Source: Burkholderiaceae bacterium (lineage in GTDB: Bacteria > Pseudomonadota > Gammaproteobacteria > Burkholderiales > Burkholderiaceae_C). From it: a stretch of 64,000 bases of DNA. The DNA lies in the NCBI GenBank assembly GCA_018780645.1, contig JADMJJ010000011.1:372001-436000 (forward strand), read 5' to 3'. Each line of letters begins with the position of its first letter. Position 1 is the stretch's first letter. Positions 26,345 to 30,599 of this stretch are shown here, in pieces. A model generated the notes under the pieces. The model saw only the letters and a program-made list of their open reading frames with translations. It did no database searches and was not told where the DNA came from. The position numbers and the translations under genes were made by a program.

Positions 26345-27133
26345 TCAGCTTGCTTCGACGCGGTGCAGCCAGGCTTGTTGGAGGGCCTGCGCCAGCCAGG
26401 CGCCGAAGTCGAAATCGGGGCCGCCGGAGTTCAAGGCCTGGGCAAGATCGCTACCCGCCAGCAAGTCCGCGGCGAAACGCCAGGCCGCCGGCTCCAGAGC
26501 CATCGCCCTCGCTCGCCATCCCTCGCGCCACACCAACACCCATGAGCCCTCGCCGGCCGCCAGCGCCGCACGCACCGGCGCGAACGGCTCCGGCTCGTCG
26601 CTGTGGTGTGCCTGCCAGATCGCCAGGACCGGGAAGTCGCTACGAAGCAAATGCACCGAGGGCATCAGCCTGAGCCGCAGCTGCTGTGGTTCGTGCTCCG
26701 CCAGCAAACCAAGGCTGGCCGGTTCGGCTTCAATATCGGCAGCACCCTCCGCGCAGCCCAGCAACCAGTCGAGCCTGGCGCTGTCGGGCAAATAGGGTTC
26801 GTCCTCCAGCTGAGGACTGTTGCGCATGAAGTTGGGCAGTTGCTCGCCCAAGCAAGCCAAGTCGCCGCGCGACGGCGGATGGACCCGCCAATAGGCCCGG
26901 GCCAGGGCGGCGAAGGCCTGCTCTCCCATCAGCGCCAGCACCGTCGGAAAGCTGCTGGCCAGCGCCCGCTCGGCCGACGCCCCGGCATTGGCACGGTAGG
27001 CGCTCAATCCACGGGCCAGCCGCCCACCCTGCTCGCACAGCCAAGGTGCCAGCGCATGCTCGCCGCCCGGCGACTGAAGTGCCCGGACCAGCGCCTGCTG
27101 GCGCTGCAGCTCACGCGTGTGGCCCTCGCTCAC
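26345..27133 (-). CDS. bufC: DUF2063 protein (BufC-like RiPP recognition/partner protein)
   Basis: [14 protein letters not shown]...[62 protein letters not shown] typical of DUF2063; overlaps the DUF692 gene by 4 nt. Confidence 0.88.
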
Positions 27134-27981
27134 AGGGCCTCCATGCGCTGCAAGGCCTGGGCAGCCTCATCGAGGAGCACGCTCAAGGCGGGCACGTCGG
27201 TGTCCCACTCCAGCAGGGTGGGTTTAGGGCCCAGGCGCTGAAGCGCGTACTCATAAGCCGTCCACACCGGCGCATGCACACGGCTCCCATGATCATCGAT
27301 GACCAGGTCCCCAGTGTCGCAATAGCCGGCCAGATGGATCTCGCCCACCGTGAGCGGATCGATCTGCTCCAGCCAGCGCTGCACCTCAGCGGCGGCCTGC
27401 GCTTCGTCAGGCTGACGGTTCAGCGCGTTGACCATCAGATTGTTCACGTCCAGCAGCAGGCCACAGCCGCTGCGCCGCGCCAGCTCGTTGAAGAACTCGG
27501 GCTCGGCCAGGCTGTCATCGGCCCAGCTCAGATAGGCGGAGAGGTTCTCCACCAGCAGCGGCCGCTTCAGCCGCTCCTGCACCCGCTGCACATTGGCCAC
27601 CATGATGCCCAGCGCCGCCGGCGTGAAGGCCAGCGGCAGCAGGTCGTTCATGTGGACCGCGGCTGACGAGGCAAGACCCGGCACACGGGCAAAGCTGGCA
27701 TGGTCTGACACCCGCACCGGAGCTGTCTCTGCCACCAGCTCGGCCAGCCGGTCCAGATGCCAGTCATCCAGCCCCATCGCCGAGCCCAGGGACAGACCCA
27801 CACCATGCAGGCTGATGTCGTAGTGCTCGCGCGCCTGGCGCAGCACCGCCCGGGCGGCGCCACCGGCGGCGAAGAAGTTCTCTGAGTGAACCTCGACAAA
27901 GCCCAAGGCAGGCAGGGTCTCCAGCAGCTCGCGGTAGTGCGGCTGCCGCAGACCTATGCCTACCTGGGCGGGTGCATGCAT
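27130..27981 (-). CDS. bufB: DUF692 family multinuclear non-heme iron oxidative enzyme (MNIO, BufB-like)
   Basis: [31 protein letters not shown]...DHASFARV...[11 protein letters not shown]...[11 protein letters not shown]...[27 protein letters not shown]. Confidence 0.93.
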
Positions 27982-27988
27982 CGCTCGC

Positions 27989-28267
27989 TCAGGCCTTCTT
28001 CATCTTGGCCTTGGCCTCGTCGGCCGTGAGGCCCTTCATGTCCTTGCAGGTGCCCTTGGGCACGTACTTCCATTCGTCGGTGCCCATGTCCGCCTTGGAC
28101 TGGCCCGCGCAGGAGTGGCTGCCCGACAGATTGGCGCAGTCGTTCTGGCCGGCCTTGGCGATGCCGAAGCACTTTTCCTTGGGCTTGTCCTGGGCGGCGA
28201 CCTGGCCCACCAGGCCCAGGGCCAGCACGGAAGCGAGGGCGGAGGAAACAATCAGCTTTTGGTTCAT
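27989..28267 (-). CDS. bufA1: DUF2282 family bufferin precursor peptide (BufA1-like)
   Basis: Sec signal [26 protein letters not shown]; core [47 protein letters not shown] with four Cys. Confidence 0.93.
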
Positions 28268-28329
28268 GGTCAGATTCCAGTCAATGTGGGTGGGAGAAAG
28301 ATTTCGTCAATGTCTTGCGACCACCGTAG

Positions 28330-28355
28330 GTCGATCAACAGGTCCAAGTCCTTAC
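28330..28355 (-). promoter_or_regulatory. candidate ECF sigma-dependent promoter of the bufferin operon
   Basis: Minus strand reads GTAAGG-N16-CGAC, resembling the GTAACC-N16-CGAA pattern recalled for Caulobacter SigF; upstream of DUF2282. Confidence 0.45.
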
Positions 28356-28392
28356 ACTGCACAGCTTGTTGTTATGGAAACAGGCCTTGGTG

Positions 28393-28950
28393 ATGAGCGA
28401 TTTTGCCCGTGCTGTCGAACAGCTGCGCCCTCAATTGATGCGTTTTGCGCAGATGCAGCTGAAGAATGAGGCCTGGGCCGAAGACGCCGTGTCCGAGACC
28501 CTGCTGGCTGCGCTGGAACGGCCACAGGCCTTTGCCGGCCAGTCTCAACTGAAGACATGGCTGGTGGGCATACTGAAGCACAAGCTGATCGACCAGCTGC
28601 GCAAGCACACCCGCGAGGTTTCGACGACCACGGCCGACGACGAAGCCGATCTCGACGAGCCGCTGTTCGCCGCCGACGGCCACTGGCGCGAGGCACCACA
28701 GGACTGGGGTGACCCGGAGCACTGCCTGCGCCAGGCCGATTTCTTTGCAGTCCTGGAAGCTTGCGTGGACAAGTTGCCCGGCGTGCAGGGCCGCTTGTTC
28801 ATGATGCGTGAATGGCTGGAACTGGACACCGACGAGATCTGTAAGGAGTTGGCCATCACCCCGACCAATCTTTGGGTGATGCTGCATCGCGCGAGGCTGC
28901 GTTTGCGTGACTGTCTGCAGCTCAGCTGGTTCGCCGGCGCCCAGGCCTGA
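28393..28950 (+). CDS. ECF-type sigma-70 family RNA polymerase sigma factor
   Basis: LRPQLMRFAQMQLKNEAWAEDAVSETLLAALERPQAFAGQSQLKTWLVGILKHKLIDQLRK and region 4 ELAITPTNLWVMLHRARLRLRDCL. Confidence 0.92.
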   Translation: MSDFARAVEQLRPQLMRFAQMQLKNEAWAEDAVSETLLAALERPQAFAGQSQLKTWLVGILKHKLIDQLRKHTREVSTTTADDEADLDEPLFAADGHWREAPQDWGDPEHCLRQADFFAVLEACVDKLPGVQGRLFMMREWLELDTDEICKELAITPTNLWVMLHRARLRLRDCLQLSWFAGAQA

Positions 28951-28960
28951 GGGAATCTAA

Positions 28961-29161
28961 ATGAAATTGATGAGGAATTGCCGCGAGGTGACCGGCCTGA
29001 CCCTGCAATCGCTCGATCGCGAGCTGAGCTGGCAGGAGCGCCTGGCCGTGCGTCTGCACATGGTGATCTGCTCGGCCTGCCCCAAGTTCGCACGTCAAGC
29101 GCAGTTCATGCGCAGCGCCATGGGGCGCTGGAAAAGCTACTCGGAGCAGGACAAGCGCTGA
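28961..29161 (+). CDS. zinc-finger type anti-sigma factor (zf-HC2-like), 66 aa
   Basis: VRLHMVICSACPKFARQ: HxxxCxxC; immediately follows the sigma gene. Confidence 0.8.
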   Translation: MKLMRNCREVTGLTLQSLDRELSWQERLAVRLHMVICSACPKFARQAQFMRSAMGRWKSYSEQDKR

Positions 29162-29242: not shown

Positions 29243-30298
29243 ATGCTGCGTTGCACCTGCCACCCTCACCCGCTGCTGTGCATCATCCCGCCCTATATGC
29301 TGGACAACCTCAGCACCTCGTCGGACGCCGCGGTGCGCAAGCAGGCGGTGGATGCCATCGCCGCCTCGGCCGAAGCGCGCGCCGTACGCACGGTCATGCA
29401 GTCGATGCCGATGATGGCGGCCTTCGCCTCGCCCTCGGCCAAGAAGAATCGCCTGATCCACGACGTCAAGGGCCTGGGCATGAGCCGGCTGCCCGGCAAG
29501 CTGGTGCGCAAGGAGGGCGACAAGGCGGTGGCCGACCCGGCCGTGAACGAGGCCTATGACCACAGCGGCGTGACCTATGACTTCTACATGAAACAGTTCC
29601 AGCGCAACTCGCTGGACGGCCGCGGCACCACGCTTATCTCCAGTGTGCACCTGGGCAAGAAGCTCAATAACGCGTTCTGGAATGGCCAGCAGATGGCCTA
29701 TGGCGACGGCGACGGCCAGCTGTTCGTGCGTTTCACCAAGTCGCTGGACGTGGTCGGCCATGAGCTTACCCATGGCGTGATCTCGCACGAGTGCAATCTG
29801 GAATATCAGGATGAGTCGGGCGCGCTGAACGAGCACTTCGCCGATGTGTTCGGCGTGCTGATCAGCCAGTGGAAGAAGAAGCACACGGCCGCCAAGGCGA
29901 CCTGGCTGGTCGGCAAGGAGATCATGGGCCCCGGCACCAAGGCCAAGGCGCTACGCGACTTCGGCCCTGGCAAGGCCTACGAGAACGACCCCAACCTGGG
30001 CACCGACCCGCAACCCAAGCATCTGCGCGACAAGTTCGTCGGCAGCTTCGACAATGGCGGCGTGCACCTGAACTCTGGCATCTTCAATCACGCCTTCTTC
30101 CTGTTTGCCAAGGCGGTCGGCGGCTACGCCTATAACGAGCCGGCGGCGATCTGGTATGAGACCATGCGCAAGCTGTCGAGCAACAGCCAGTTCGTCGACA
30201 TGGTCACGACCACACAGATGGTGGCTGCCAAGAACCATGGCAGCGGCAGCAAGCAATTGAAGGCCCTCAACGATGCCTGGAAAGCGGTTGGATTCTGA
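29243..30298 (+). CDS. M4 family metallopeptidase, protealysin-like (no obvious Sec signal)
   Basis: IIPPYMLDNL propeptide-like motif; DVVGHELTHGVISHECNLEYQDESGALNEHFADVFG. Confidence 0.93.
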   Translation: MLRCTCHPHPLLCIIPPYMLDNLSTSSDAAVRKQAVDAIAASAEARAVRTVMQSMPMMAAFASPSAKKNRLIHDVKGLGMSRLPGKLVRKEGDKAVADPAVNEAYDHSGVTYDFYMKQFQRNSLDGRGTTLISSVHLGKKLNNAFWNGQQMAYGDGDGQLFVRFTKSLDVVGHELTHGVISHECNLEYQDESGALNEHFADVFGVLISQWKKKHTAAKATWLVGKEIMGPGTKAKALRDFGPGKAYENDPNLGTDPQPKHLRDKFVGSFDNGGVHLNSGIFNHAFFLFAKAVGGYAYNEPAAIWYETMRKLSSNSQFVDMVTTTQMVAAKNHGSGSKQLKALNDAWKAVGF

Positions 30299-30595
30299 TG
30301 TTGTGGACTGGCAGCAGCTGCGGCTGACCGAGCAAGGCGGCTTCGCCGGCCTGCTGCGCGGGGCCGAGTTGCGCGCCGTCGACCTGGATGCCAAACAGGC
30401 AGGCCGCATCGCGAAGTTGCTGGGCCAGGCCCAGGGCGCGGCCCGCCAGGCGCCCGGCTATCCCGATGGCCAGACCCTGAGCCTGGAGGTGCAGGCCGCC
30501 AGCGGCCCCTGGACCGCCCAGTTCGACTGCGCCGACCTGCCCGAGGCAGTGGATAAGCTCAAGGGCCTGCTGACCCTCAGGCCCATCGCCCCACG

Positions 30596-30599
<4 letters not shown>
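30273..30599 (+). CDS. emfourin-like protealysin inhibitor
   Basis: 108 aa, [15 protein letters not shown]...[13 protein letters not shown]; overlaps the M4 gene 3' end by 26 nt, as in protealysin operons. Confidence 0.78.

Follow-up and report, generated by a model that had tools for sequence, protein, structure and literature searches.

A divergent ECF sigma factor and soluble zinc-finger anti-sigma factor very probably switch on two bufferin systems and MsrPQ through a shared promoter motif

We analysed a 64,000-nucleotide stretch of DNA from a Burkholderiaceae bacterium (the window) and observed an ECF sigma factor gene and a soluble zinc-finger anti-sigma factor gene lying divergent from a bufferin operon, bufABC. 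Judged from the sequences compared, this switch very probably activates two systems of copper-binding peptides, together with one for protein repair, via a shared motif, GTAAG-N16/17-CGAC. The genes, the motif, its conservation, its link to the sigma factor and a codon constraint on a copy of the motif embedded in the sigma gene can be read directly from the DNA. The best explanation of the whole, which we consider likely, is that the locus governs a small regulon for envelope protection, with a feedback-limited sigma factor. The features are as follows.

26345..27133, minus strand: bufC1, DUF2063 partner protein (PF09836, 3e-18)
27130..27981, minus strand: bufB1, MNIO maturase (PF05114, 1e-91; NF050167 BufB 305.7 bits, slightly below the cut-off of 310)
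27989..28267, minus strand: bufA1, Buf1 (DUF2282) bufferin precursor, 92 aa (PF10048, 3e-25)
28330..28333, minus strand: bufA promoter, predicted -10 element CGAC (CGACNNA, with the A at 28327); CGAC invariant in 62/62 aligned sites
28350..28355, minus strand: bufA promoter, predicted -35 element GTAAGG; GTAAG invariant in 62/62 aligned sites, the G after it in 56 and the following A in 60
28353..28358, plus strand: TACACT, probable housekeeping -10 for sigma and anti-sigma, overlapping the bufA -35; CTTACACT invariant in 62/62
28393..28950, plus strand: ECF sigma factor, 185 aa (PF04542, PF08281; PRK12520 above cut-off)
28841..28865, plus strand: embedded GTAAG-N16-CGAC, candidate sigma-dependent anti-sigma promoter; TGT at Cys150 in 56/64 relatives
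28961..29161, plus strand: soluble zinc-finger (ZAS) anti-sigma factor, 66 aa (PF13490, zf-HC2; NF052368); C7, H33, C37 and C40 invariant

A first-pass annotation had placed the sigma and anti-sigma genes at these coordinates and divergent from bufABC, all of which proved correct on re-checking. The sigma factor of this Roseateles-like genome shares 96% identity with its R. toxinivorans counterpart. It consists of Sigma70_r2 and r4_2 domains, that is, regions 2 and 4 only, as in Neisseria sigmaE/MseR-type sigmas, and scored 300.5 bits against NCBIfam PRK12520 (cut-off 255). The anti-sigma factor scored 74 bits against NF052368 (anti-sigmaE; cut-off 50) and also matched zf-HC2. The HxxxCxxC noticed earlier in this protein is present and forms part of a longer motif, C7-X25-H33-X3-C37-X2-C40, all four ligands of which were invariant across 13 relatives. 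A search of its sequence against the PDB gave no meaningful match, and a fold search with a modest model (pLDDT 75) returned RsiW on top at a non-significant E=3.8. The operon has the composition of a Buf1 cluster: a DUF2282 precursor with a signal peptide and four cysteines in its mature part, followed by MNIO and DUF2063 genes. Our sample comprised 80 sigma loci from named genomes, with genus relatives in addition. The sigma/anti-sigma pair was kept together in all of them, and bufABC was divergent from the pair in 63. Directly 3' of the anti-sigma gene lie genes for an M4-family metalloprotease and then emfourin (29243-30599, plus strand), a placement seen in the closest relatives only. Within the sigma gene, codons Ser34 (TCC in 44/64) and Leu61 (CTC in 46/64) showed strong, unexplained synonymous constraint.

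The first-pass annotation had proposed a GTAAGG-N16-CGAC about 60 nt before the bufA ATG as the cognate promoter. We found GTAAGG-ACTTGGACCTGTTGAT-CGAC at 28355-28330 on the minus strand, with a spacer of 16 and its end 62 nt before the ATG. In 62 of the 63 relatives with the divergent layout, the intergenic region carried the motif in bufA orientation, compared with a mean of 1.6/63 in shuffled sequences and 1/63 on the opposite strand. The search tolerated GTNAG and CGWC; every match nonetheless read GTAAG and CGAC. The sole exception among the 63 regions (L081) read CAGTGTAATTA...CGAC. By this comparison the bufA motif is far above chance and real. Across the 62 aligned sites the sequence between GTAAG and CGAC varied while its length changed by one base only, and for this reason we read the two blocks as -35 and -10 boxes. 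We also noted a 5-bp inverted repeat, CGACCTACGGTGGTCG, at 28318-28333 on the minus strand, whose start coincides with the bufA -10.

On the sigma strand, the strict motif was found upstream of the sigma gene in 0/62 intergenic regions, and CTTACACT was invariant in all 62, in most cases 30-40 nt upstream of the start of sigma. Reading AGTGTAAG as an extended bufA -35 was ruled out, because the AGT extension is missing from the msrP and bufA2 promoters described below; an overlapping housekeeping -10 fits better. A simple sigma-70 scan upstream of sigma yielded no full promoter and no -35 partner for TACACT. On the simplest view, TACACT probably serves as the -10 in a weak housekeeping promoter that overlaps the bufA -35, such that the two polymerases would be mutually exclusive. 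The rpoQ-rsqA pair of Cupriavidus metallidurans is RpoD-dependent (PMC10304878).

Pattern searches of the window's genome for GTAAG-N16/17-CGAC, a scan that the first-pass annotation had called for, returned 19 matches, five of them just upstream of bufA1, bufA2, bufB2C2, msrPQ and doxX. Since the last four carry the motif, the predicted regulon reaches unlinked loci. The expected background is ~0.005 per 350-nt window. The bufA2, bufB2 and msrP sites recur in all three genus genomes, and the bufA2 and bufB2 spacers differ in sequence. bufA2 and bufB2 are neighbours in relatives; in this genus they lie ~35 kb apart (L124 and L125 on contig C113 of the window's genome), with the motif before each half. 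The msrP motif occurred in 28/30 sigma-carrying and 0/22 sigma-lacking genomes (Fisher p=1e-12), where sigma-lacking is defined by an E-value cut-off and denotes genomes that are on average more distant, only three belonging to the same GTDB family. The bufA2 motif was found at 25/26 loci, the remaining locus lacking it. One DUF2282 locus with the motif (L338) belongs to a genome scored as sigma-lacking; its genus includes sigma carriers, and its sigma may fall just below the cut-off. More distant sigma carriers of the order had the msrP motif in 12/29 cases. Outside the genus, doxX was rejected as a general regulon member, its motif being confined to the genus and a few others (about 7/30 relatives).

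These data strongly support GTAAG-N16/17-CGAC as the cognate promoter of the sigma factor. As far as sequence can carry it, the earlier promoter claim stands, on conservation in 62/63 regions, co-occurrence of sigma and motif, and a coherent regulon. An improbable alternative is that another regulator, either a different ECF sigma or a DNA-binding protein, reads the motif and that the motif accompanies this sigma because of common descent or joint inheritance. Each genome does hold several ECF sigmas (19-20 loose candidates), and the sigma-lacking genomes come mostly from other families. Against this, two asymmetric blocks whose spacing varies by one base suit a sigma factor rather than a repressor site, the msrP contrast is 28/30 to 0/22, and a single gene in the genome closely resembles this sigma (E<=1e-30). 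The motif also adjoins this sigma family on Alphaproteobacteria plasmids (Sphingopyxis) and is embedded, under codon constraint, in the sigma gene itself.

Three further matches are candidates only. In the window's genome the motif lies 30 nt before a gene for a SelL-like AhpC/TSA redox protein (L110), 109 nt upstream of cytochrome b561 (L119) and 7 nt upstream of an OmpR-type response regulator (L274), the last also in genus relative G001. Matches within ORFs (e.g. L107, L269, L273, L275 and L276) were taken as chance. A thioredoxin-CcdA pair carries the motif in G001 (L130), and such a pair adjoins this sigma/anti-sigma type on a Burkholderia glumae plasmid (L350). At sigma loci without bufABC (L050, L065 and the Sphingopyxis plasmid, L352), the motif precedes a TVP38/TMEM64-FAD oxidoreductase gene. 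On this sequence pattern, the sigma family has adjacent targets other than bufABC.

One of the 19 genome matches lies within the sigma gene, on the anti-sigma strand and 95 nt before the anti-sigma ATG. It is built from recognition-helix codons (ICKELAITPTN), namely TGT-AAG ... CCG-AC. The Cys150 codon was TGT in 56/64 buf-linked sigma genes, compared with 139/770 cysteine codons in the comparison set and 47/481 in sigma and anti-sigma genes alone. When 169 codon columns were ranked by departure from codon usage, the Cys150 codon came first and the -10 codon third, with neighbouring synonymous sites varying freely. The TGT:TGC ratio was 61:12 with lysine following and 1:7 without it, where GTAAG cannot form. 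Cys-Lys pairs elsewhere prefer TGC (44/44 in bufA, 9/10 in other gene-like ORFs), and codon-pair bias was rejected as the cause of TGT on this ground. In order-level sigma homologues of 45-65% identity with lysine following, TGT was kept in 16/19. Because of the TGT constraint, its dependence on the following lysine and the use of TGC in Cys-Lys pairs elsewhere, we read the embedded site as probably a sigma-dependent promoter that makes anti-sigma alone and so provides negative feedback.

It is less likely, though not negligibly so, that the site is no promoter and that TGT is kept by codon pairing, mRNA structure or inheritance. The loci do share descent, and the Ser34 and Leu61 codons are strongly constrained as well. 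Against these readings stand the TGC found in Cys-Lys pairs elsewhere, the drop of TGT to 1/8 without lysine, the third rank of the -10 codon, the 16/19 retention among diverged homologues and the free variation nearby. The promoter reading has an experimentally shown parallel in Corynebacterium glutamicum sigH-rshA, where the anti-sigma alone is transcribed from a sigma-dependent promoter within the sigma gene (PMC3489674); that system differs in phylum, promoter sequence and regulon. Apart from the C. glutamicum case, literature searches for internal anti-sigma promoters, and separate ones for this sigma in Roseateles, returned nothing. We find it reasonably likely that, in Burkholderiales with this sigma family, recognition-helix codons double as a sigma-dependent anti-sigma promoter, kept by synonymous selection in much of the order and accompanied by an overlapping housekeeping/sigma promoter pair, and that the circuit limits itself while it drives the unlinked Buf1, Buf2 and MsrPQ genes as a single regulon. 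New relative to the first-pass annotation are the trans regulon, the candidate promoter embedded in the sigma gene and the probable overlapping housekeeping promoter.

The closest characterised system is Neisseria sigmaE/MseR, not Caulobacter SigF-NrsF. Neisseria sigmaE (NMB2144/NGO1944) and MseR (NMB2145), encoded in the operon NMB2140-2145, pair a sigma with a small soluble ZAS anti-sigma of identical Cys/His spacing (PMC2893595), a spacing that also matches RsrA of S. coelicolor. The sigmaE consensus is GTMAGBWTT-N12/13-CGTCTAAH (PMC2893595). Its -35 GTMAGB is matched by GTAAG and the overall spacing agrees, whereas the -10 is CGTC there and CGAC(NNA) here. The final A of CGACNNA, found in 26/28 msrP and 23/25 bufA2 promoters, fits the last A of the Neisserial CGTCTAA. 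As in the window, the sigmaE operon holds bufferin-type genes, namely one for a DoxX-like protein and one for a DUF2063 protein (NGO1945, a name given in PMC10304878). Its regulon includes the methionine sulfoxide reductase MsrA/B, where that of the window's sigma is predicted to include MsrPQ and two bufferin systems. The Neisseria sigma is encoded last in the operon that it activates and is autoregulated, whereas the window's sigma is divergent and lacks the strict motif on its strand. We regard this as a difference of layout rather than a family criterion, as RpoE2 of Haemophilus influenzae is also barely autoregulated. The candidate embedded promoter is a further difference from sigmaE/MseR. 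H. influenzae RpoE2-HrsE (PMC7907618) resembles the window's pair in its 67-aa ZAS anti-sigma, its very limited sigma autoregulation and its control of methionine sulfoxide repair, and differs in its targets (msrAB and a transporter) and its response to HOCl; its promoter motif is undefined in that paper.

The first-pass annotation had likened the bufA motif to that of Caulobacter SigF. The likeness holds for promoter layout (GTAA...CGA in SigF and BcrS) and for regulon content: the ECF16 system SigF-NrsF controls MsrP/YedY and two buf operons (PMC3511200), and Brucella BcrS-AbcS, also ECF16, has msrQP in its regulon (PMC8315932). It fails for the promoter bases and the anti-sigma type. SigF-type systems combine a six-TM NrsF membrane anti-sigma with GTAACC-N16-CGAA, a code not seen at bufA, where 62/63 sites read GTAAG...CGAC. 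The 66-aa zf-HC2 partner gave no match to NrsF (DUF1109) with the same profile library that recognises NrsF in Cupriavidus sp. KK10. Because promoter code and anti-sigma type both differ, the SigF analogy is one of function, not of membership. In KK10, plasmid p1 carries an NrsF-type sigma gene (L353:3552) that points away from bufABC; CGTAACC-N16-CGAA lies immediately upstream of bufA there and is a candidate for the gig promoter not yet found in Cupriavidus. C. metallidurans rpoQ-rsqA/gigPABT (PMC10304878, PMC11022561) shares with the window a pair divergent from bufferin genes and, as proposed here, an RpoD-dependent sigma pair. It differs in an anti-sigma predicted to be membrane-bound; in those papers the gig promoter was not found and dependence on RpoQ was not shown.

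With regard to the signal, it is possible, though we hold it only tentatively, that the anti-sigma is a metal sensor, as the first-pass annotation had inferred, and that it binds copper or cadmium and releases sigma. Bufferins sequester copper (PMC12452194), Cu and Au induce gig of C. metallidurans, which comprises the same genes (PMC10304878), and Caulobacter SigF answers Cr and Cd (PMC3511200). Yet those systems have NrsF-type or predicted membrane anti-sigmas, which are absent from the window, the H. influenzae relative RpoE2/HrsE works in the hypochlorite response (PMC7907618), and nothing metal-specific was seen in the window's protein beyond its zinc ligands. Neisserial MseR gave no response to the oxidants tested (PMC2893595). 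Characterised relatives suggest signals of the thiol or oxidant kind, and methionine-sulfoxide repair stands beside bufferins in the predicted regulon; work on E. coli MsrPQ likewise links chlorine oxidants with copper (PMC9302797). A zinc-thiolate centre could respond to any of metal, HOCl or disulfide stress. Copper sensing is not supported above these alternatives, and we consider thiol or oxidant sensing and metal sensing equally plausible.

We infer a circuit in which sigma binding, the signal, the feedback and the housekeeping promoter are parts of a model. At rest, by comparison with MseR, HrsE and RsrA, the soluble zinc-finger anti-sigma would retain sigma in the cytoplasm, both proteins probably being made from the weak housekeeping promoter rather than from a GTAAG/CGAC site. 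An oxidant or thiol-reactive metal would disturb the zinc-thiolate centre and free sigma, which would guide RNA polymerase to GTAAG-N16/17-CGAC promoters. This would turn on bufA1B1C1 and, in trans, bufA2 and bufB2C2 (the unlinked second bufferin system) and msrPQ, the last providing periplasmic methionine-sulfoxide repair; in this genus doxX would be switched on as well. Free sigma would also fire the promoter within its own recognition-helix codons, and the extra anti-sigma would shut the response off.

Control of bufferins outside Caulobacter has been poorly established: Buf1 clusters, unlike Buf2 clusters, were reported to be accompanied by sigma genes (PMC12452194), and no gig promoter was found in Cupriavidus (PMC10304878). 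The motif described here gives that control a sharp sequence, and sets apart two promoter codes, GTAAG/CGAC paired with a zinc-finger anti-sigma and GTAAC/CGAA paired with NrsF. It also points to a possible hidden negative-feedback promoter inside the sigma gene. In conclusion, sequence comparison links the second and orphan bufferin genes, as well as periplasmic methionine repair, with a single sigma factor, and a regulon like that of Caulobacter SigF, with two buf operons and MsrP/YedY, would be reached here through a different type of sigma/anti-sigma pair.
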